Shown: one piece after another, positions 18,471 to 57,034 of the stretch
Position numbering within the stretch: the first letter of the stretch is position 1
Layout: the number at the start of each line of letters is the position of its first letter
NCBI GenBank assembly: GCA_902776435.1
Contig: CACYQB010000010.1
Location: 31,925-95,924, forward strand
Length of the DNA stretch: 64,000 nucleotides
From: an uncultured Bacteroidales bacterium
Lineage (GTDB): Bacteria > Bacteroidota > Bacteroidia > Bacteroidales > Muribaculaceae
Direction of reading: 5' to 3'
Position numbers and translations under genes: made by a program
The notes under the pieces: generated by a model
What the model saw: the letters and a program-made list of their open reading frames with translations, nothing else
What the model was told of the DNA's origin: nothing
The model's database searches: none

Positions 18471-21185
<2,715 letters not shown>

Positions 21186-21245
21186 TTACTTTACTTTTTC
21201 TTTTGAATATTTAGTAAATAATTATTAGTTTCTTTATTGGCGGTG

Positions 21246-21253
21246 CAAAGTTA
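21246..21253 (-). promoter_or_regulatory. -7 box (TAACTTTG) of ppdK
   Basis: The reverse strand reads TAACTTTGC 61 bases before the ppdK start codon. No clear -33 TTTG was found. Confidence 0.6.
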
Positions 21254-21530
21254 GTGATTTTACCTCAATTTTCCACATAATGAGCCTTAAAATTACACAT
21301 TTTTATATAAAAACCTTACTTCCGCACTGATTCGTTTCACTCTGCAAGAGAAATACCCATTTTTGGTTACAAATCACATCAAAACACCGCCCATGAAACA
21401 CCTCAACCCATCCAATCTAATTGAAAATAAAACACTAGTTGCCCAATTACAATTTTTCACTACAAGGCTCCAGATTGAGGCCAGGAGATGATTTTTCGGC
21501 ACAAAAGGATGGTGAGAATGAAAAAAGCAT
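21254..21530. other. AT-rich spacer between divergent promoters, no gene seen
   Basis: The stretch separates the ppdK promoter from the forward TATCTTTG box at 21531. The forward open frame that crosses it has no start signal and reads through the promoter. I see no hairpin or repeat of note. Confidence 0.4.
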
Positions 21531-21538
21531 TATCTTTG
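21531..21538 (+). promoter_or_regulatory. -7 box (TATCTTTG) for the 124-residue unknown gene
   Basis: TATCTTTGC lies 36 bases before the ATG at 21574. Confidence 0.6.
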
Positions 21539-21573
21539 CCGATTGTAAACGAACGACATTGCTAATTAAAGTT

Positions 21574-21948
21574 ATGGACAAGAATACAAAAAAAATACTT
21601 GACGATGACACCAACGGGCTATTGACATATGAATATATAGCCAATAATATGGGCAACATCGACGCCGATATGCCCGCACTGGTGGATAATATGATAATGA
21701 AGGACCGCACGGGACAGTTTGTAGTGAGCACTGCCCGCTACCTGAATGCAATCGACCGCGAGAAGTTTGCCTCCAGCATCGACCTGCTGGTCAAGGCCGC
21801 TATCGCTAAGGACCGTGACCACGTCTATCTGTCCTATCTTGCCGCCTCGCTGTGGGGTGACGACTTCAAGGAGCGTGCCGCCGAGTTGAGCGCCACTGAT
21901 GACAACTTCCGCCGCATTTACAAGCGCCTGTATCCTGTCGGAATCTAA
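21574..21948 (+). CDS. Small cytoplasmic protein of unknown function
   Basis: I do not recognise this 124-residue protein. It has no signal peptide or membrane segment, is rich in Asp, Lys and Ala, and looks mostly helical (for example REKFASSIDLLVKAAIAKD and KERAAELSATDDNFRRIYKRL). Its start at 21574 follows a TATCTTTG box, and the longer frame upstream is excluded because it would begin before the promoter. The cyclophilin gene starts 30 bases after its stop, so the two may share a transcript. Confidence 0.65.
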   Translation: MDKNTKKILDDDTNGLLTYEYIANNMGNIDADMPALVDNMIMKDRTGQFVVSTARYLNAIDREKFASSIDLLVKAAIAKDRDHVYLSYLAASLWGDDFKERAAELSATDDNFRRIYKRLYPVGI

Positions 21949-21977
21949 TCGGAGTCAAATACAATCCCTATATTGTA

Positions 21978-22697
21978 ATGAGAAAGCACTTTTTATTATC
22001 CCTCGTGATAATGGCCTTCGCGTTTATCATGTGCTCGGCCAGCAACACAGGCATCGAGGGCAACAGCCCTGCAAGTCAAAAAAACAAAGGCAACAAGATG
22101 ACAAAAGTTAAATTGGAGACCTCGATGGGCGACATTGTGTTCGTACTCTTCAACGAGACTCCTCAGCACCGCGACAATTTTATCAAGCTGGTGAAGGAAG
22201 GTTACTATGACGGTGTGCTATTCCACCGCGTGATTAAGGACTTCATGATCCAGACCGGTGACTGCAATTCAAAGAACGCAGGCCCCAACACCATGCTGGG
22301 CGAAGGAGACCCCGGTTATACCATCGAGGCTGAATTTGTTTATCCCAAGTATTTCCACAAGCGTGGAGCCGTTGCAGCTGCCCGCACCCCAGACTTCATG
22401 AATCCCGAGCGCCGGAGCAGTGGCAGCCAGTTCTACATCGTCACGGGCAGGTATTTCAGCAGTGATGACCTGAAGAGGATGTCCGAAAGCAAGGGCATCA
22501 CCATGACCGATGAACAGATTGATGCCTACACCAGCGTGGGCGGCGCCCCTCACCTTGACGGCGAGTATACCGTCTTTGGCGAAGTCATCGAGGGCATGGA
22601 TGTCGTTGACAAAATCCAGAATGCCGAGACCAACCGCGACCTGGGCGACCGTCCCGTCACCGATATCAAGATCATCAAGGCGAGTATTGTGAAATAG
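21978..22697 (+). CDS. Cyclophilin-type peptidyl-prolyl cis-trans isomerase, exported
   Basis: Catalyses proline isomerisation during protein folding. The 239-residue protein has an N-terminal hydrophobic export segment ending AFIMCSASN, with a Cys at 19 that could be lipidated although the lipobox is imperfect. The cyclophilin domain covers residues about 43-239, with the conserved VLFHRVIKDFMIQTGD and GSQFYIVTG motifs. A loop insertion around DDLKRMSESKG is typical of Bacteroidales members. A strong terminator follows. Confidence 0.9.
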   Translation: MRKHFLLSLVIMAFAFIMCSASNTGIEGNSPASQKNKGNKMTKVKLETSMGDIVFVLFNETPQHRDNFIKLVKEGYYDGVLFHRVIKDFMIQTGDCNSKNAGPNTMLGEGDPGYTIEAEFVYPKYFHKRGAVAAARTPDFMNPERRSSGSQFYIVTGRYFSSDDLKRMSESKGITMTDEQIDAYTSVGGAPHLDGEYTVFGEVIEGMDVVDKIQNAETNRDLGDRPVTDIKIIKASIVK

Positions 22698-48648: not shown

Positions 48649-50019
48649 ATGAGAGAACAAGTAAGAGAAACGATTGCGACACGTGCGTGGGCACGATGGA
48701 CCGTGCTGGCTATCGTGTCGTTTACCATGATGGCAGGATATGTGGTAGCCAAGGAAATGTCCCCCTTGCAGTTCATGCTCGAGAAGGCCGCCCAGGATGG
48801 CGGTATGGGTTGGACGAGTGGTGAATTCGGCATCTTTGCCGGGTCACGCGGTTTCTTTAACGTGTTCCTGCTGATGCTCTTTGTGGGCGGTATCATCCTC
48901 GACAAGATGGGTGTGCGCTTCACGGGCATTCTCTCGTGTGTGCTGATGCTGACTGGTGCGGCAGCCGTTTATGGCGTCATCACCTACACCTCGCCCGACC
49001 CCTTGTGGAGTGTACCCCTGCTGGGCACCATCAAGCGGCAGGTGGCATTGGCGGCGTTGGGATTTGCCTTCTTCGGCATCGGCTATGAAATGTGCGGCAT
49101 CACGGTGTCTAAGGTCGTGGTGCGCTGGTTCTCGGGCAAGGAGATGGCCCTCGCGATGGGCCTGCAGGTAGCCATGGCACGACTGGGCACTGCATTGGCG
49201 CTCAACTTTAGCCTTCCCATTGCGCTGAACTGGGGACTGCCACGTCCTTTGCTCATCGGCCTGTTCTGTGTGGGCGTGGGTCTTATCGCCTATCTCTACT
49301 ACTGCACGATGGATCGCCGCCTCGACAAGGAGCGGGGCAAACAAGACACCTCTCAAGGTGAAGACGAAAAGTTCCATTTCGCCGACATGAAGCTCACGGT
49401 GAAGAACCCCGGTTTCTGGCTCATCACCCTGCTCTGCCTGTTCTACTATTCCGCGCTCTACCCCTTCCTCGACTTTGCCACCAAACTGATGATTTCCAAA
49501 TATGGCGTCGAGGCTGAGTTGGCTGGAGCCATCCCCTCTATCCTCCCCTACACCAGCATCGTGCTCACACCGTTGTTCGGAGCTTGGTTTGACAACAAGG
49601 GCCGTGGTGCCACCATGATGGTTATCGGCAGCGTGCTACTGACCATCACCCTGTTTGTGTTCGCCATGCCCCTCAACTCCAGTTGGCTGGCCGTGACACT
49701 GATGTGCGTGCTGGGCATCGCCTTCTCGCTGCTGCCAGCCGCCCTGTGGCCCGCCGTGCCCAAAATTGTGCCCATGAAGCAATTAGGCACCTCCTACTCT
49801 ATCATCTATTACATCCAGAACATCGGCCTGATGCTCATTCCCGTGCTCATCGGCATGGTGCTGGAACGCAACACCATCGGCGACCAGGTGGACTACACCC
49901 ACTCGCTCATCATTTTCGGCGTAATCGGCGTGGGCGCCATCATCACCTCATCATTGCTCTTGTGGATGGACCGCAAGCGCCACTACGGCCTCGAGAGCCC
50001 GAACATCGATGAGAGATAA
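48649..50019 (+). CDS. MFS transporter, second of a tandem pair
   Basis: A 456-residue inner-membrane transporter with about 12 helices. It shares motifs with its neighbour: IILDKMGVRFTGILS, VVRWFSGKEMALAMGLQVAMAR, the central loop CTMDRRLDKERGK and the closing KRHYGLESPNIDE (the neighbour ends KKKHLGLEEPNIK). These show an old tandem duplication. Divergence and separate transcription units suggest different substrates or regulation. A strong terminator follows. Confidence 0.88.
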   Translation: MREQVRETIATRAWARWTVLAIVSFTMMAGYVVAKEMSPLQFMLEKAAQDGGMGWTSGEFGIFAGSRGFFNVFLLMLFVGGIILDKMGVRFTGILSCVLMLTGAAAVYGVITYTSPDPLWSVPLLGTIKRQVALAALGFAFFGIGYEMCGITVSKVVVRWFSGKEMALAMGLQVAMARLGTALALNFSLPIALNWGLPRPLLIGLFCVGVGLIAYLYYCTMDRRLDKERGKQDTSQGEDEKFHFADMKLTVKNPGFWLITLLCLFYYSALYPFLDFATKLMISKYGVEAELAGAIPSILPYTSIVLTPLFGAWFDNKGRGATMMVIGSVLLTITLFVFAMPLNSSWLAVTLMCVLGIAFSLLPAALWPAVPKIVPMKQLGTSYSIIYYIQNIGLMLIPVLIGMVLERNTIGDQVDYTHSLIIFGVIGVGAIITSSLLLWMDRKRHYGLESPNIDER

Positions 50020-50201: not shown

Positions 50202-50232
50202 TTTGCGTTTTACCGAAAAAGCAGTACCTTTG
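50202..50232 (+). promoter_or_regulatory. Promoter of the riboswitch transcript (TTTG-N19-TACCTTTG)
   Basis: TTTG at 50202-50205 and TACCTTTG at 50225-50232 have a 19-base spacer. The start would be near 50239, a few bases before the riboswitch. Confidence 0.75.
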
Positions 50233-50244
50233 TTGCTGTAATAC

Positions 50245-50480
50245 GATGTGCTCTGGTGTCTCATGCCCTCTTGGCATGGGAATTAAAAGGGAATCAGGTG
50301 CAAATCCTGAACAGTACCCGCTGCTGTGAGTCCTCCATCCAAGTCCCAACACACGAGGGACACACGTCGGTTCACACATCAAGCCACTGGCCAACTCTAC
50401 CTGACAACAGGCTACATCATGACCGGGAAGGCGTGAACACGACGGGGACGAGTCAGAAGACCTGCCCGAACACAAAGCCT
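50245..50480 (+). promoter_or_regulatory. Cobalamin (B12) riboswitch
   Basis: Characteristic segments occur in the right order: GGGAATCAGGTGCAAATCCTG (50289-50309 region), ACAGTACCCGCTGCTGTGAG (50311-50330), the B12 box AAGCCACTGG (50381-50390), GGGAAGGCG (50425-50433) and the closing GAGTCAGAAGACCTGCC (50449-50465). The aptamer starts close to the predicted transcription start. Cobalamin riboswitches repress uptake and synthesis genes when B12 is plentiful. The only gene downstream on this transcript is the 2060-residue DUF4465 protein. Confidence 0.92.
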
Positions 50481-50750
50481 TACTTTTCCACCCATCTGTG
50501 CCCCAGCACAATAGGGTGGCGAAAGGTCCACGAGGCATTTGGACCCGAGGCAAAGAAAATGATGTAGTCGCTCCCCTATCGACGTGCGTCTAGTTTTTTT
50601 CACACACGAGCCAATGGCGGCAACCATGTTTTGACCCGACAAAGCATGAAGCGATTGATGCTTTGCTATGAATGCCACAAGTGGCCTTTCATGAAATGAT
50701 TAACAGTTGATTAAGAAACCCTTTTTGTATTAACTAATTAATAACATTTT
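50481..50750 (+). other. Leader between riboswitch and giant gene, probable expression platform
   Basis: No reading frame is supported. Hairpins visible are CCACCC/GGGTGG (about 50489-50520), GGTCCA/TGGACC (about 50525-50546), AAAGCAT/ATGCTTT (about 50641-50665) and GCCACAAGTGGC (about 50675-50686). A T7 run lies at about 50594-50600. No TAnnTTTG promoter box is seen, so the downstream gene most likely depends on the riboswitch promoter. Which hairpin acts as terminator or ribosome-site sequester is unclear. Confidence 0.5.
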
Positions 50751-53700
50751 ATGAAAGCATTAAAGATCTACCTGTTCATGATGATCGCGCTGCTAGGTGG
50801 TGCGTTCATCGATGCGAGTGCGGCAGAGCCATCAAAGGGATGGAGCGATGCTGACGGTGTTTTCTACCTCAAGACCAATGATGGCCTTGAGCAATACACT
50901 GTCGATGGCACCATCACCTTCAAGGCTGTTGCCGACGGGAACACGATTCCCAGTTATCGCGATTGTGGTGTGGTTTTCTCTCCAGCCAATGAGGGAGAAA
51001 TTATCCAAATCACGGTCAACAGTATCGACTTGAGCGGCGACAACTATCTGCTGCTCTATGACGGCGCCATCGAGAAAATCGGCTATGGCGTTGGTGGTAA
51101 TCAAGGTCAAGCCAGCTACCTTCCCGATGGATTTGTGCGCTGGTACACCAGCGAAAGCGTTGGCGAGAGCTATACTTCGACCAGCGAGGATGGCAAACTG
51201 TCGTTTGGTTTCCACTCCAAGAGTCCTGCGGGCCAGACGGGATTTAATATCACCGTAACAAGCCTATCTCCCAAGGACATGGAGTACAAGGGCATCGAGG
51301 TGATTGACAATCTGTCAAGTACTTATCGCAATGCCAAGAATCAAGCCATCTATGGTGTGAACGTCATCACCGACGGTAGTAGCAATGCTCTCACGCTAGA
51401 TGAGCTTTCCATCAATGCCAGCGTTCTCACGGGCAGCGACCAAGTGACTAACGTGCGGCTGTATCGTGGTGAGCAGTTTACCGACGATGCTCTGCTGGCA
51501 ACAGCATCCAGCGTTGGTGCCAACCTAGCGGCCAGCAATGTCACACTCAAGAGCGGCAACAACAAGTTCATGGTCGTTGCCGACGTTCTGCCTAATGCCA
51601 CAGGCGATATTCCATCATTGCAATTTGTAAGTGCAAGTGTGGCAGGTGTGGCGTGCACGCCTGAAACAACAACGGGCAATGCTATCACCATCGACAACAC
51701 TATCCTGATGCCAAGCGAGGCTACCACATTCACCATCGGTGACGCGGCGAACTTCTATGACGATGGTGGTATCGATGGCAAGGTGGGACTTCATTTCACG
51801 GGCACTGTGACCTTTATTCCCGCTACCCCTTGCCATGCTATCAAGGTTGATTTCTCAAAGCTTGCCATCTTTAACACCTCGACGGTTGGCATGAACGACA
51901 TCCTCAACTTCTACAACGGCCGCACGGCCGACGAGGCCAACCTCATCACGACCTTGCTCACCGAGGCTGAGACCGTGAAATCGACTGCCGAAGACGGTTC
52001 GATGACTATCACACTGACCAGCACCACTGGTGTCCCTGCCGATGGTTGGGAAGCTATGGTTTCGGAATTCCTGCCTGGCGACATGACCTTTGCGGGCCTC
52101 AACGTCACGTCAAGTTCATCGACAACGGTTGCTGCTGGCGATCAAGCCAATATGCTCATCGTTGACGTGATGACCGACAATCAGAGCAATCCTCTGTCGC
52201 TCACGGCATTGAATCTAACCTGCACCGACGCCAGGAACATCGACAAGGCCACTGCTTATTACCTGGGCAAAAAGAATGTCATGAGCACTACCAACCCCTT
52301 TGGCGAAACTACTGTCACCGATGGCAATATCACCATCAACGGCAATCAGGAACTCACCGAGGGACACAACTACCTAGCCATCGTTCTCGATGTCAAGAAC
52401 ACAGCCCTTAATGGTGAACAGATCGACTTGACTTTGGCCTCGGCAACTGTGGGTGAGAACATTCAAACTCCTGCTCAAGCAGTCACGGCACAATGTGCTG
52501 TGGCCAACGTCTGCCACGCTACACAGGGCAGCCACGGCCACACCATGTATGACGAGTGGACCTTTACCCACACCGAGTCTTCTATCACTCCTGGAAAGTA
52601 TGAATATGAAGATGCCGAGTACATCGTCACATTCACTCCTGCTGAGGCAGGCAAAGTGGCACAGTTGGATTTCTCATCGTTTGACGTGACCTATTCCAAC
52701 ACCAGCTACGGCGTAAAGGCCGTGTTTGAAGTGTATAGCGGTACGAGCGTGAATGCCAACAATCTGTTGTGGGCACTGAGCGACGCCAGCCAGGCAATCA
52801 CTGGCCCAGGCAGGACCTTGCGCTCTACAGCAGCCGACGGCTCAATGACCATTCGCTTCAACCCCAAGACTACCAGCAGTTACTATGCTGGCAGTGGCTG
52901 GATGGCAACCGTAATCCCCTTCCAGAACCATGCAATGGAAGTTGAAAGCGTAACCGTCAACCAGAGCAGCATCGATGTTGTGCCCGTTGGTGCTACCGAT
53001 GCCCAGATTATCGACTTTGACATCGTCACTAACGGTTCTCTCACCGTCAAGACGGTGTCCGAGGTCAATCTTGACCTGAAAGACGGCCAGCAGAATGTGG
53101 CCAAAGTCAATGTTCTTTATAACAATACAAACGACCTGGCAACCGCTGTCGCCTTTGGCAGCATTGAGTATCCCCAAAATAGTGCAGTCACCGTAACTGG
53201 TGAACGTGTACTTGTCGAGGGTGACAACTACTTCTGGGTAACCCTTGACGTCAAGAGTGACGCCCAGAGCGAGCAGGCCATCGACGCACGCCTCGTGTCG
53301 ATAAAGGATGCCGAGGGCAACGTCATCGAGGTGTCCAACGGCGACCCCGAGGGTGAGCGCATCATCAAGAGCATGCTCATCATGCAGAATGGTGTGAATG
53401 TTGTCACCGTGACACAACCGATAATGTTCTATGATGACGGCGGCCCCGATGAGAACTTTAGTAAGGGCTTTGATGGCACCATCACCTTTGTTCCCGGTGT
53501 TGAGAACTGCGGTATCGAAATCAACGCCATCAGTTTTGCAACAGGTTCCAGCAGCTACAACAAGTTCACTGTCTATCATGGCAGTGTGGTGAGCGACGAG
53601 TATAAGGATGGCGGCAACTACTATGCCACCTACGGTCCCACCTACCTGCTTTCAAAGGCCGATGACGGCTCATTAACCATCACCTTCACCACCAGCAGTT

Positions 53701-56700
53701 CATCTTATGCAAGTCAAACTGCCGGTTGGGAAATCGAGGTTTATCTGCATGAGTACAAGCCTCTCGCAGTTGATCAGGTAAGTTCCAACGCAGCCACAAC
53801 CGAGGAAGTTGTGCGCGGTAGCGTTGATGCCAAGTTGGTCAAGGTGGAGGTCAAGGTGGACAACGACAAGGAGAGTGTCAACCTCAACGACTTTATCTTC
53901 TCGACCACCGGTACCACCAATTCGAGTGACGTCGTTGCCGCCAAGCTGTACTACACTGGAAAGGTGGACAACTTTGGCACCCAGAATCTCATTGCTACCG
54001 TCACCGACTATAGCGCCAGTGACATCACCTTCACGGCTACTGAGCCCATCACCATCACCGAGAATGGCACTTATTACCTGTGGATGGCTCTCGACCTGGC
54101 CGAGGATGCAGAAGCGGGCGATATCGTTGCCGCACAGTTGACAGGCATGAGCGGATTGACCGACACGACCGAGGTCAATGGCACCGTAGCCGAGCGTGTT
54201 ATCAAGAGCGGCTTCCACGGCACCTACACCATCGGTGCAAGTGCTGACGCCGACTATACCACCTTCACCGCTGCAGTAGCGGCGATGAGCGGCGGTATTG
54301 ATGGAGCTGTCCGCTTTGAGGTCGAGGATGGCCAATATGCCGAGAACATCGAACTGACCAACATTGCCGGCACTAGCGAGGCACACAACATCACTTTCAC
54401 GAGCAAGAGCGGTAACTGCGATGCTGTGGTCATCAAGGGTAACACCAACACCGGTAACGGCGGTATGGTCCTGATTGACGGCACATCATTTGTTACCCTG
54501 GAGGGCATGAGCTTCATCCCCACCAGTCAGAGCTATGCCAACGTGATTCTCGTGCGCAACGAGAGTCGCCACTTCACCCTGCGCGACAGTTATGTTAAGG
54601 CCGAACCCGTCACCTCGGGCTATAGCGGCATGAACCTCGTGCGCACCACCAGTGGCAGCGGCGACGGCATGAACAATGACTATGCCACCATCGAGGGCAA
54701 CACCCTGGAGGGCGGTTACATCTCCCTGTACCTGAGCGGTCCTAGCCCAGTGGCTTATCAAGACGCTATCGGCTATGTGGTGCGCAATAACTCCATCAGT
54801 GATCCCCGCGGCAAGTCTATCTACATGATGGACGTACAGGATGCAGTAATCGACGGTAACACCATCAGCCAGAGTTTCACGACCTACAACAATTACAATG
54901 GTATGGACCTGTACAGGTTGAGCGGTGCGTTTGTAGTATGTAATAATGTGGTCATCAATACCCATAGTGCTTACTCCAACGGTATCTACCTGCGTCAGGA
55001 ATGCCAAGGTGAGAGTGAATCACGTCCCGCACTCATTTATAATAATAGTGTGGTCATCACCAACTCGCCCAACAACAACACGGCTGGTTTGCAGATCAAC
55101 AGCGATGCCCGCAACATCCATGCCTACTATAACACCGTGCGTGTAGCAGGTTCTGGTGGCTATTGCTTCTACAATGGCAATAACAGCAACCGATACAGCA
55201 ACATCAAGTTGCAGAACAACCTGTTCCAGAACTTCACTACCGATGGCTATGTCGCCCTGTTCTACGATGAGAACAAGGTTGTAGCCACTGACATGCGCAA
55301 CAACGTGCTGTATGCTGCCAGCGGTAACATCGTCAAGGATTACGCCCTCACCATCGATGACCTCAATGCCCTCGTCGGCAACGAGACCAACACCGTAGAG
55401 CAGGCTACTTTCCTGAGCGACGTTGATAATCACCTCAAGTTGGCAGGAAACCTATTAACGGCCATGCCCATCGATTTCATCACAACCGATGCCGACGGCA
55501 ATAGCCGCCATGCCGAGACACCCACAGTTGGTGCCTATGAGTATGCCGACATTGTGGTTGTCACTCCTGAGATTGCCGAAGGTTATCCTCAGGTAATCAC
55601 CGTGGGAGAGACCAATGCTAACGTCAAGACCAAGTGGAACGTGAGCGGCAAGCTCTACAGTCTGGTTCAAACCAATGACGCTAATGACGTCACCATCGAG
55701 AACCTGCTGGCCACCACGCCTGTTGATTACACTGCTGATAGTGAGCAAACCACAGCGTTCAAGGATTTGACGCCCTCGACCGACTACAAGGCTTACTTCC
55801 TGCTCGTGAGCGCCCTTGATGGCAGCCAGAGCGAAATCGTAGTGAGTGATATGTTCACTACCCTGCGCCACATCGATGACCTCATGGTTGACTTTGGCAC
55901 GACAGGCTATGTGACCATTGAAGCTGGTGAAGAGGCTACCCTCGCACCCGTTATCACTGGCGGTGATGAGCCTTACACCTATGAGTGGCGCGACCAAATG
56001 AATAATGTGGTGGGCACTGAGGCCACCCTTACTGCCGCTCCCGATTACACTTGGGGCTACAAACTCACCGTAACTTCGGCCGACGGTCAGACCATCCAGG
56101 CCAAGACCGCTATCCGCGTACAGGGTGACGCCGTAACTGCGACTTTCGACGACAATTATTTGCCCGCGAATAGTTTCTTCATTGGCGACCAGGAGAATGA
56201 TGTATTCTACAGCGGTTCTTTTGCCTTCAATGTATCTAATATGGACGGCTGGTGGTATGGCTACGGCATGAGCAACCAGATGGACACCACCTTTACCAGC
56301 TTGAACGATCAATACCACTCAGCCGTTGGGGGCGGCGTTGGCGGTTCACAGTTCTGTGTCGCTTTCCCCAGTGGAACGACGGTTGACGTGACCAATGACG
56401 TTGATGGTGACTTGATCAATGGTGTCATGATCACTAACTCGGCCTATGCTTACTCCAGCATGAAAAACGGTGATAGCTTTGCCAGAAAGTTCACTACCGG
56501 CGACTGGTTCTTGCTGACTATCATCGGCACGCACAGCGACGGTACATCCAGTACAGTAGAAGCCTACCTTGCCGACCTGCGTGATGCCGACACAACCAAG
56601 CACTACATTCTGGATAGTTGGAAGTGGGTTGATCTTTCATCGCTTGGCGAGGTCAAGAGTCTGCGCTTTGACCTGAGTAGTAGTGACGTGGGTCAATGGG

Positions 56701-56933
56701 GCATGAATACACCCGCCTATGTCTGCATCGACAATTTGGGAGCCGGCAAGCCCACAGGCGACATCAACTGCGACGGTGTCACCAGCATTGTTGACGTAAC
56801 TACACTCATTGACTATCTATTAGGCTCTGAGGTAAATCCGTTCGACCAGGAGGCTGCCGATGTCAATCACAATGGTACAATCTCCATCTCGGATGTTACC
56901 GCACTGATTGACATTCTCTTGGGCTTGAATTAA
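50751..56933 (+). CDS. Giant secreted modular protein with DUF4465 and dockerin domains, candidate cobamide-binding protein
   Basis: A 2060-residue exported protein. The signal peptide is about residues 1-25 (ASA/AEP cleavage, no lipobox Cys). Four tandem units follow, each a CUB-like sandwich (FYDDGG motifs at about 338 and 892) plus a module like BNR_assoc_N: about 45-300, 325-565, 584-850 and 883-1140. Residues about 1155-1595 look like a right-handed beta-helix. Fn3-like (about 1600-1700) and Ig-like (about 1705-1793) modules come next, then DUF4465 (about 1795-1998). Two dockerin calcium loops end it (GDINCDGVTSIVD, DVNHNGTISISD). DUF4465 is the family of B12-binding BtuH proteins, from memory. 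With the upstream cobalamin riboswitch, a role in cobamide capture is inferred. No btuB or btuG is adjacent. Confidence 0.85.
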   Translation: MKALKIYLFMMIALLGGAFIDASAAEPSKGWSDADGVFYLKTNDGLEQYTVDGTITFKAVADGNTIPSYRDCGVVFSPANEGEIIQITVNSIDLSGDNYLLLYDGAIEKIGYGVGGNQGQASYLPDGFVRWYTSESVGESYTSTSEDGKLSFGFHSKSPAGQTGFNITVTSLSPKDMEYKGIEVIDNLSSTYRNAKNQAIYGVNVITDGSSNALTLDELSINASVLTGSDQVTNVRLYRGEQFTDDALLATASSVGANLAASNVTLKSGNNKFMVVADVLPNATGDIPSLQFVSASVAGVACTPETTTGNAITIDNTILMPSEATTFTIGDAANFYDDGGIDGKVGLHFTGTVTFIPATPCHAIKVDFSKLAIFNTSTVGMNDILNFYNGRTADEANLITTLLTEAETVKSTAEDGSMTITLTSTTGVPADGWEAMVSEFLPGDMTFAGLNVTSSSSTTVAAGDQANMLIVDVMTDNQSNPLSLTALNLTCTDARNIDKATAYYLGKKNVMSTTNPFGETTVTDGNITINGNQELTEGHNYLAIVLDVKNTALNGEQIDLTLASATVGENIQTPAQAVTAQCAVANVCHATQGSHGHTMYDEWTFTHTESSITPGKYEYEDAEYIVTFTPAEAGKVAQLDFSSFDVTYSNTSYGVKAVFEVYSGTSVNANNLLWALSDASQAITGPGRTLRSTAADGSMTIRFNPKTTSSYYAGSGWMATVIPFQNHAMEVESVTVNQSSIDVVPVGATDAQIIDFDIVTNGSLTVKTVSEVNLDLKDGQQNVAKVNVLYNNTNDLATAVAFGSIEYPQNSAVTVTGERVLVEGDNYFWVTLDVKSDAQSEQAIDARLVSIKDAEGNVIEVSNGDPEGERIIKSMLIMQNGVNVVTVTQPIMFYDDGGPDENFSKGFDGTITFVPGVENCGIEINAISFATGSSSYNKFTVYHGSVVSDEYKDGGNYYATYGPTYLLSKADDGSLTITFTTSSSSYASQTAGWEIEVYLHEYKPLAVDQVSSNAATTEEVVRGSVDAKLVKVEVKVDNDKESVNLNDFIFSTTGTTNSSDVVAAKLYYTGKVDNFGTQNLIATVTDYSASDITFTATEPITITENGTYYLWMALDLAEDAEAGDIVAAQLTGMSGLTDTTEVNGTVAERVIKSGFHGTYTIGASADADYTTFTAAVAAMSGGIDGAVRFEVEDGQYAENIELTNIAGTSEAHNITFTSKSGNCDAVVIKGNTNTGNGGMVLIDGTSFVTLEGMSFIPTSQSYANVILVRNESRHFTLRDSYVKAEPVTSGYSGMNLVRTTSGSGDGMNNDYATIEGNTLEGGYISLYLSGPSPVAYQDAIGYVVRNNSISDPRGKSIYMMDVQDAVIDGNTISQSFTTYNNYNGMDLYRLSGAFVVCNNVVINTHSAYSNGIYLRQECQGESESRPALIYNNSVVITNSPNNNTAGLQINSDARNIHAYYNTVRVAGSGGYCFYNGNNSNRYSNIKLQNNLFQNFTTDGYVALFYDENKVVATDMRNNVLYAASGNIVKDYALTIDDLNALVGNETNTVEQATFLSDVDNHLKLAGNLLTAMPIDFITTDADGNSRHAETPTVGAYEYADIVVVTPEIAEGYPQVITVGETNANVKTKWNVSGKLYSLVQTNDANDVTIENLLATTPVDYTADSEQTTAFKDLTPSTDYKAYFLLVSALDGSQSEIVVSDMFTTLRHIDDLMVDFGTTGYVTIEAGEEATLAPVITGGDEPYTYEWRDQMNNVVGTEATLTAAPDYTWGYKLTVTSADGQTIQAKTAIRVQGDAVTATFDDNYLPANSFFIGDQENDVFYSGSFAFNVSNMDGWWYGYGMSNQMDTTFTSLNDQYHSAVGGGVGGSQFCVAFPSGTTVDVTNDVDGDLINGVMITNSAYAYSSMKNGDSFARKFTTGDWFLLTIIGTHSDGTSSTVEAYLADLRDADTTKHYILDSWKWVDLSSLGEVKSLRFDLSSSDVGQWGMNTPAYVCIDNLGAGKPTGDINCDGVTSIVDVTTLIDYLLGSEVNPFDQEAADVNHNGTISISDVTALIDILLGLN

Positions 56934-56970: not shown

Positions 56971-56981
56971 AGAACGCATTA

Positions 56982-57034
56982 ATTAAATAGACGAGGTGGC
57001 TCAATAAGAGAGTCACCTCGTCTATTTAATTATA
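56982..57034. terminator. Strong bidirectional intrinsic terminator
   Basis: A perfect 17-base stem (56982-56998 with 57014-57030), AT-rich at the base, separates the giant gene from the convergent SDR gene. Confidence 0.88.

Follow-up and report, generated by a model that had tools for sequence, protein, structure and literature searches.

Introduction

Proteins of the DUF4465 family (IPR027828) constitute the BtuJ family, for which vitamin B12 binding was reported in 2025-2026 (PMC12751083, PMC13398666). BtuJ1 and BtuJ2 of Bacteroides thetaiotaomicron bind B12 tightly and play a role in vesicles (PMC12751083), and eight distant DUF4465 proteins were shown to bind B12, with a tyrosine in the HI loop present in 97% of the homologues (PMC13398666). 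We have analyzed a stretch of 64,000 nucleotides (hereafter the window, whose numbering is used throughout) from an uncultured Bacteroidales bacterium of the Muribaculaceae (assembly GCA_902776435.1, contig CACYQB010000010.1, positions 31,925 to 95,924 of the forward strand), in which a cobalamin riboswitch precedes the gene of a 2060-residue DUF4465 protein, here called the giant. The retention of this pair in many relatives suggests an oversized, poorly studied B12-capture tool.

The giant shares with BtuJ1 and BtuJ2 a jelly roll with the conserved HI-loop tyrosine, a signal sequence and a cobalamin-riboswitch locus. These two are lipoproteins of small size, with solved chains of 256 and 305 aa, and are encoded inside btu operons, whereas the giant has 2060 aa, no lipobox, an arm of CUB, immunoglobulin (Ig) and beta-helix domains, a C-terminal dockerin and, in the window, probably its own transcription unit. 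It is not a BtuJ lipoprotein in the strict sense, as it has neither the lipoprotein signal nor a btuB/btuG locus, the locus being found in the relatives named L060/L061. Closer in layout are the non-lipoprotein DUF4465 proteins with C-terminal targeting motifs (38% of 824 members), which also carry a targeting module after DUF4465 and no lipobox; the motifs counted in that survey are IPR026444 and IPR013424, without dockerins, and its main text does not use the word multidomain (PMC12751083). D5EK51, crystallized with B12 (9hmu), is the closest solved relative of the giant's domain, but the solved chain has 250 aa and the main text of the report uses neither the word multidomain nor the word dockerin (PMC13398666).

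Other surface proteins for B12 include BtuG (PMC6143338) and BtuH (BT_1956, 7biz). BtuH, with its PKD- or beta-propeller-fused alleles, resembles the giant in having a C-terminal B12-binding domain behind Ig-like domains, in its riboswitch loci and in being widespread in gut Bacteroidetes; unlike the giant, it is a lipoprotein (593 residues for BtuH2) with a different B12-binding domain, and over 80% of its homologues lie in btuB operons (PMC8941943). An initial annotation of the locus had assigned DUF4465 to BtuH, which these reports correct: the domain is that of BtuJ (PMC12751083, PMC13398666). The same annotation proposed an undescribed acquisition strategy. B12 binding by DUF4465 and the existence of non-lipoprotein members are already published (PMC12751083). 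We found no description of the giant's architecture, or of the riboswitch conserved with it, in the open-licence literature; nor did we find a paper there linking cobalamin riboswitches with Muribaculaceae, a broader search yielding one review on nutrition.

Results

A cobalamin riboswitch leads a giant DUF4465 gene

A cobalamin riboswitch aptamer was identified at positions 50237-50483 (+ strand) by a covariance-model match to RF00174 covering the full model (1-189) and scoring 91.8 bits (gathering score, 31.5; E = 1.9e-21). It is the sole RF00174 match at the gathering score within the window. A pattern scan placed a promoter, TTTG-N19-TACCTTTG, immediately ahead of it (50202-50232, + strand). 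We took TTTG/TAnnTTTG to be the Bacteroidetes-type consensus, as given in the initial annotation; TTTG-N18-21-TAnnTTTG had 13 matches in the window where 0.39 would be expected, a count reached in none of 100 shuffles. Scans for sigma-70 promoters and terminators gave no more matches than in shuffles.

The aptamer is followed by one ORF in the ORF list, starting with ATG and encoding 2060 aa (50751-56933, + strand). The leader between aptamer and start codon (50484-50750, + strand) contained no exact TAnnTTTG; a one-mismatch box, TAGTTTTT at 50591, had no TTTG at the proper distance. The encoded protein matched PF14717 (DUF4465) at residues 1833-1996 (56247-56738, + strand) with 177 bits and E = 5.9e-52. 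Thus, the full promoter, the riboswitch, the single downstream gene without a second exact promoter box and the DUF4465 domain, as first annotated, were all recovered.

The riboswitch-giant pair is kept in relatives

We have examined the linkage in three overlapping sets of genomes. The genus set comprised 61 genomes, 57 of them with DUF4465 and 15 (the window's included) with a DUF4465 ORF of 1990-2211 aa; four partial giants lacking the 5' end (L054, L057-L059) were left out of the scoring. The 14 other giants were homologous to the window protein over its length, at 45-57% identity, and all 14 were linked to a cobalamin riboswitch. In 12, RF00174 lay directly upstream, and in the other two (the relatives named L060/L061) the giant came fourth in a riboswitch-led run, after the genes of a TonB receptor, a DUF5074 (BtuG-like) protein and a dockerin-terminated 397-aa protein, in that order (domains were scanned in one of these two runs, the ORFs being near-identical in the other).

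The second set held 52 loci from named genomes, of which 47 contained a giant ORF, seven of them ending with the contig before DUF4465. The five excluded loci were a contig-end fragment with a riboswitch by pattern (L110), two partial matches (L111/L112) and two loci with dockerin only (L113/L114). The giant was riboswitch-led in 43 of the 47, directly in 40 (39 by pattern, L099 by cmscan) and within a run in three (L083, L098 and L088). L083 and L098 represent the operon type, with the giant downstream in a riboswitch-led run; in L088, from soil, the riboswitch is followed by a Peripla_BP_2 (BtuF-like) gene and then by the giant. Of the remaining four, L092 and L103 start near contig ends and were unscorable, and the distant giants L104 and L109 had no riboswitch at the gathering score.

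A family-wide search of 197 genomes (127 with DUF4465) provided the third set: 14 giants, 13 of them from eight other genera, chosen by DUF4465, ORF length and genus, regardless of the riboswitch. They were drawn among the giants listed, G186, G098, G215, G169, G145, G137 and G234 being left out. By cmscan, all 14 directly followed an RF00174 match lying on the same strand; these giants were 28-51% identical to the window protein. One might argue that the riboswitch is left over from a lost btu operon and that the giant drifted beside it. The two distant giants without a riboswitch are the sole point in favor of such chance proximity, which the 14/14 direct linkage across these genera contradicts; we have rejected it, leaving it a negligible likelihood.

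These counts are not independent: the second set includes many genomes of the first, L124 of the third is apparently L082 of the second, and some rows are near-copies. The riboswitch pattern recovered 20/20 cmscan matches in L040-L062 with no extras and missed L099 and the second riboswitch of L088, and is therefore weaker for distant sequences. Individual distances are approximate because start codons were assigned mechanically; the one chosen in L044/L074 is located too far downstream, and in L068, L069, L120 and L122 the choice is probably wrong.

By sequence comparison, the giant is conserved along its length across the window's family, in Dysgonomonas sp. BGC7 and in one of the Bacteroidetes from soil, with a constant order of CUB-like/Ig pairs, beta-helix, DUF4465 and a variable tail. 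The Dysgonomonas giant (L085) has 2360 aa; its record carries no MAG label, and the strain is therefore probably available as an isolate. Most genomes viewed carry the riboswitch-giant pair without btu-like genes directly between or after. The description of the giant as free-standing, made in the initial annotation, holds for the window genome and fails for the relatives in which the giant sits inside riboswitch-led runs. In L051, L055 and L063, the giant is adjoined by a TonB receptor gene and by a short DUF4465 gene that has a riboswitch of its own, the second there. A tree of 52 DUF4465 domains split the giants from four ordinary short BtuJ-like domains (support 100/99), with one very long branch among the short ones; the short forms of L051, L055 and L063 nested within the giants, as if cut from them, and the short L056 also fell on the giant side. 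Short domains are thinly sampled in this tree, numbering eight, with L031 and L034 coming from eight loci tried, of which the pattern used recovered no domain in the remaining six.

The DUF4465 domain resembles those of B12-binding proteins

The nearest solved relatives by sequence were D5EK51 with B12 (9hmu, E = 3e-25), BtuJ1 (9fct/9qpm, E of about 3e-13) and BtuJ2 (9i2l, E = 2e-6). The predicted domain superposed on 9hmu, 9fct and 9qpm with template modeling (TM) scores of 0.73-0.76 over the target, and on BtuJ2 (9i2l) with 0.54-0.59. The model thus shows the augmented beta-jelly-roll fold. No BtuH-type domain was recognized, BtuH2 (7biz) giving a weak global match (rank 29, TM 0.07/0.13).

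The comparison of binding residues covered the HI-loop and DE-loop positions. The HI-loop tyrosine was conserved in all 31 complete giants compared; in the window protein it is Y1990, the presumed B12 ligand, in the motif NTPAY (residues 1986-1990; 56706-56720, + strand), an HI-loop motif that has been described before (PMC13398666, PMC12751083). At the DE-loop position, Y1899 in the window protein and equated with Y146 of BtuJ1 by alignment reading, 28 of the 31 had tyrosine, the exceptions being L064, L099 and L104. The conserved residues and the eight B12-binding members of the family suggest that the giant's DUF4465 domain binds cobamides.

A long arm precedes the DUF4465 domain

The giant starts with a Sec-type signal peptide, as judged by eye (50751-50825, + strand), and has no lipobox, its earliest cysteine being residue 72. 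In Pfam, the window protein matched DUF4465, BNR_assoc_N over Ig-like stretches and a C-terminal dockerin, with neither CUB nor Beta_helix matching at E 0.01. Across 14 full-length members (the window protein and 13 of its genus), DUF4465 and BNR_assoc_N were found in 14, Beta_helix in 12, CUB in nine and dockerin in one. Because the window protein has no Pfam match of its own for them, its CUB-like and beta-helix parts were assigned through the alignment of relatives, self-comparison, in which the N-terminal repeats are visible, and predicted models. Four CUB-like plus Ig-like (BNR_assoc_N) pairs span residues ~24-1152 (50820-54206, + strand; boundaries by eye), followed by a right-handed beta-helix region at residues ~1153-1600 (54207-55550, + strand) and by fibronectin type III (Fn3)-like and Ig-like domains, named by eye from the model, at residues ~1604-1795 (55560-56135, + strand), the second part of which gave profile matches to decoration proteins (E of about 2e-6). 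The models had a predicted local distance difference test score of 88 for the CUB-like/Ig part and 85 for the C-half, falling below 50 in the last 57 residues.

Foldseek matched the N-half best to the cubilin CUB domains that bind intrinsic factor-B12 (3kq4). The two share tandem CUB domains, but with 10% identity and TM scores of 0.11/0.24; neuropilin and enteropeptidase also matched strongly, and we have rejected homology to cubilin in favor of what is probably only the common CUB fold. A search of the window's own genome for a paralogous scaffold returned, at E 0.001, only the N-half itself.

The C-half matched the lacto-N-biosidases TnX, LnbX and BsaX (E = 1e-8 to 4e-8, TM 0.39-0.46 over the target, 12-14% identity). 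Such matches would be expected if the giant were an enzyme whose beta-helix acts as a glycoside hydrolase or lyase, freeing bound cobamides or acting on glycans, with DUF4465 as an accessory. Right-handed beta-helices resemble one another widely, though, and no catalytic family was found in Pfam or NCBIfam at E 0.01 in the 14 members scanned, which makes an enzyme highly improbable.

The alignment of the window protein with the 13 genus members had a mean column identity of 64%. Conservation was highest within CUB-like domains two and three (residues 351-450 and 651-750), where the mean pairwise identity was 69-79%, compared with 50-59% for the DUF4465 region. This distribution would suit a protein that is chiefly an adhesin or matrix component, controlled by a genuine riboswitch, in which DUF4465 would sense or store B12; the main function would then be attachment under B12 starvation and not the feeding of BtuB. 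The CUB/Ig/beta-helix arm does make up most of the protein, and in most genomes viewed no btu-like genes directly adjoin the pair. The conserved presumed ligand tyrosine, and the runs in which some genomes join the giant to btuB/btuG-like or btuF-like genes, speak against such a role, which we consider rather improbable.

The C-terminal module varies and is a dockerin in the window protein

The window protein ends with a type I dockerin (residues 2003-2056; 56757-56918, + strand; Pfam match), at the place of other tails in relatives. It has no Por_Secre_tail-type domain of type IX substrates, the dockerin being found instead. Por_Secre_tail ends three of the four distant giants scanned (L088, L099 and L104, not L085), and a tail of the form YVN..G..SD.PF.G.N ends 15 of the 30 complete named giants, by a loose pattern that missed some close variants. 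The window's own genome encodes SprA of the type IX system and has seven Por_Secre_tail matches. In the window protein, the dockerin would replace the sorting tail as a putative sorting signal.

The same genome has at least 150 dockerin matches and three cohesin matches, two above the cut-off and one below, each located by coordinates in an ORF with a dockerin match; no scaffoldin was identified. A cellulosome-like assembly, in which the dockerin plugs B12 capture onto a cohesin scaffold, would be in line with the dockerin count and with a second, riboswitch-led protein of this genome, an 859-aa DUF5074 protein that is also dockerin-terminated. With so few cohesins, and with the dockerin in one of 14 giants and other tails in relatives, we have set the cellulosome aside as very improbable; the dockerins of this genome probably have a function outside any classical cellulosome.

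The leader carries a recurrent hairpin

In the window, 267 nt separate the aptamer from the start codon, compared with 170-253 nt in nine of 12 relatives and 339, 378 and 749 nt in the other three, the longest reflecting a misplaced start. Among 41 riboswitch leaders ahead of giants (the window included; L088 and giants without their own leader excluded), 40 had a TAnnTTTG box and 22 the complete TTTG/TAnnTTTG pair. The segment 50466-50760 was predicted to fold more stably than its own shuffles (z = -5.2), with the giant's start codon base-paired in the predicted fold.

A post-aptamer hairpin, GGTCC[ACGAGGCATTT]GGACC, lies at 50525-50545 (+ strand) and was recognized by its recurrence in leaders. 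Its loop core CGNGGNNTT recurs although the stem bases vary: the core with a stem of at least four pairs was present in 32 of the 41 leaders (some near-copies) and in 13 of 2050 simple shuffles, the pattern having been picked from the same 41 leaders on which it was counted, after an initial pattern that matched six. This is probably the regulatory hairpin of the expression platform, to judge from its recurrence. We presume that it corresponds to P13 in the usual nomenclature. In the uptake operons of B. thetaiotaomicron, every tested promoter was almost silenced by B12 (PMC12751083), and by analogy with those riboswitches, expression of the giant gene would be lowered by B12.

The giant is probably transcribed as a lone unit in the window genome, since the upstream major facilitator superfamily transporter gene (+ strand) ends at 50019 and the downstream short-chain dehydrogenase gene lies on the - strand. 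By Pfam, both neighbors are unrelated, and the giant does not lie inside a btuB/btuG locus in the window. A terminator-like 23-bp inverted repeat lies between the convergent genes (56980-57032, no strand assigned); the terminator scan had not picked it up.

The window's genome holds further B12 genes

The same genome has three RF00174 matches besides that of the window. The first leads a TonB receptor and DUF5074 (BtuG-like) pair. The second (L008 7125-11101, contig C24) leads the gene of the dockerin-terminated 859-aa DUF5074 (BtuG-like) protein and, after it, a short DUF4465 gene; besides the giant, the genome thus has another protein with a dockerin encoded behind a cobalamin riboswitch. 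The third (L009 8885-12113, contig C33) leads a TonB receptor gene and a 363-aa protein with a CbiK (cobalt chelatase) domain. Because these loci include TonB receptor and BtuG-like genes, btuB is not replaced by the giant, and the view of the initial annotation that the giant stands in its stead could not be maintained.

On another contig (L115 801-12606, C7), which holds none of the four RF00174 matches, we found genes for CbiC plus a methylase, CbiG plus a methylase, a CbiD/CbiJ fusion and CobS, together with FecCD and Peripla_BP_2 genes. A search for the MetH activation domain gave no match in this 95%-complete genome. With cobalamin-synthesis genes in the genome, we have rejected a plain auxotroph story. 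The organism is possibly a cobamide producer that keeps several capture systems.

Other elements near giants and B12 loci

Next to the giant's locus in L088, a further cobalamin riboswitch lies upstream of genes that resemble, by eye, anaerobic ribonucleotide reductase and its activase (18883-22149); a similar gene also neighbors the giant of L129. A protein family with the near-start motif PAPGQF recurs in riboswitch-led B12 loci (L060 3696-4889, L051 1677-2897 and the N-terminal part of L008 7510-10089), either alone, with 397-406 aa, or fused ahead of DUF5074. In Pfam at E 0.01, the lone forms gave no match (L051) or dockerin only (the L053 copy of the L060 gene). This family is possibly another cobamide-handling protein. 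A SAM-II riboswitch lies ~140 nt past the end of a partial giant gene (L057 1789-1847), and a match to the FopS small RNA ~120 nt upstream of the riboswitch of another giant (L123 8248-8315).

Discussion

The anatomy of the locus, the identity of its DUF4465 domain, the conserved riboswitch and architecture, and the linkage to btu-like genes in some genomes are observed directly. We propose that the giant is a riboswitch-controlled, secreted cobamide-binding protein of the DUF4465/BtuJ family that feeds BtuG/BtuB-like uptake, and give this reading a probability of about 0.8, its binding, expression and localization being predictions from sequence. The cobamide-capture role suggested at first gained from riboswitch linkage in dozens of relatives; B12-repressed capture is likely because the giant nearly always follows a cobalamin riboswitch, in some genomes within btuB-btuG-like or btuF-like operons.

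When cobamide is low in the cell, the riboswitch would leave the giant gene on; cobamide bound to the aptamer would lower its expression, as in the characterized Bacteroides riboswitches. The signal peptide would export the protein, and the module at its C-terminus (in many relatives a type IX-like sorting tail, here a dockerin) would position it outside the cell. Beside this module, the DUF4465 jelly roll may bind cobamides through its tyrosine-lined loops and hand them to a separately encoded BtuG/BtuB-like pair for uptake, while the front part of ~1,700 residues (CUB-like/Ig, beta-helix and Fn3/Ig domains) might form a long arm for reaching or holding something in the surroundings.

Several observations weigh against this proposal. 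The window protein ends in a dockerin instead of a type IX tail, and its genome has few cohesins. Two distant giants lack the riboswitch, and the DUF4465 region is less conserved than parts of the arm. Furthermore, the window's genome has cobalamin-synthesis genes and no match to the MetH activation domain, which makes a need for capture less obvious than it would be for an auxotroph and is the chief weakness of a simple starvation story.

In an extended form of the proposal, the giant would be a capture fibre controlled by vitamin status and displayed under B12 starvation, the CUB-like/Ig and beta-helix part of its arm of ~2000 residues binding a particular partner (a glycan, vesicle, other cell or B12-carrying protein) from which the membrane-side DUF4465 takes the cobamide. 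We regard this as unlikely; if true, it would couple attachment to vitamin need and would be a bacterial counterpart, in principle and not by descent, of the CUB-domain receptors for carrier-bound B12.

Gut communities are shaped by competition for cobamides. The surface B12 tools characterized in the papers cited here are much smaller proteins, mostly from B. thetaiotaomicron. A riboswitch-controlled giant shared by the window's family and a Dysgonomonas would add a far larger capture device to them, and a long multidomain protein of obscure use gains a testable ligand and a testable expression signal.

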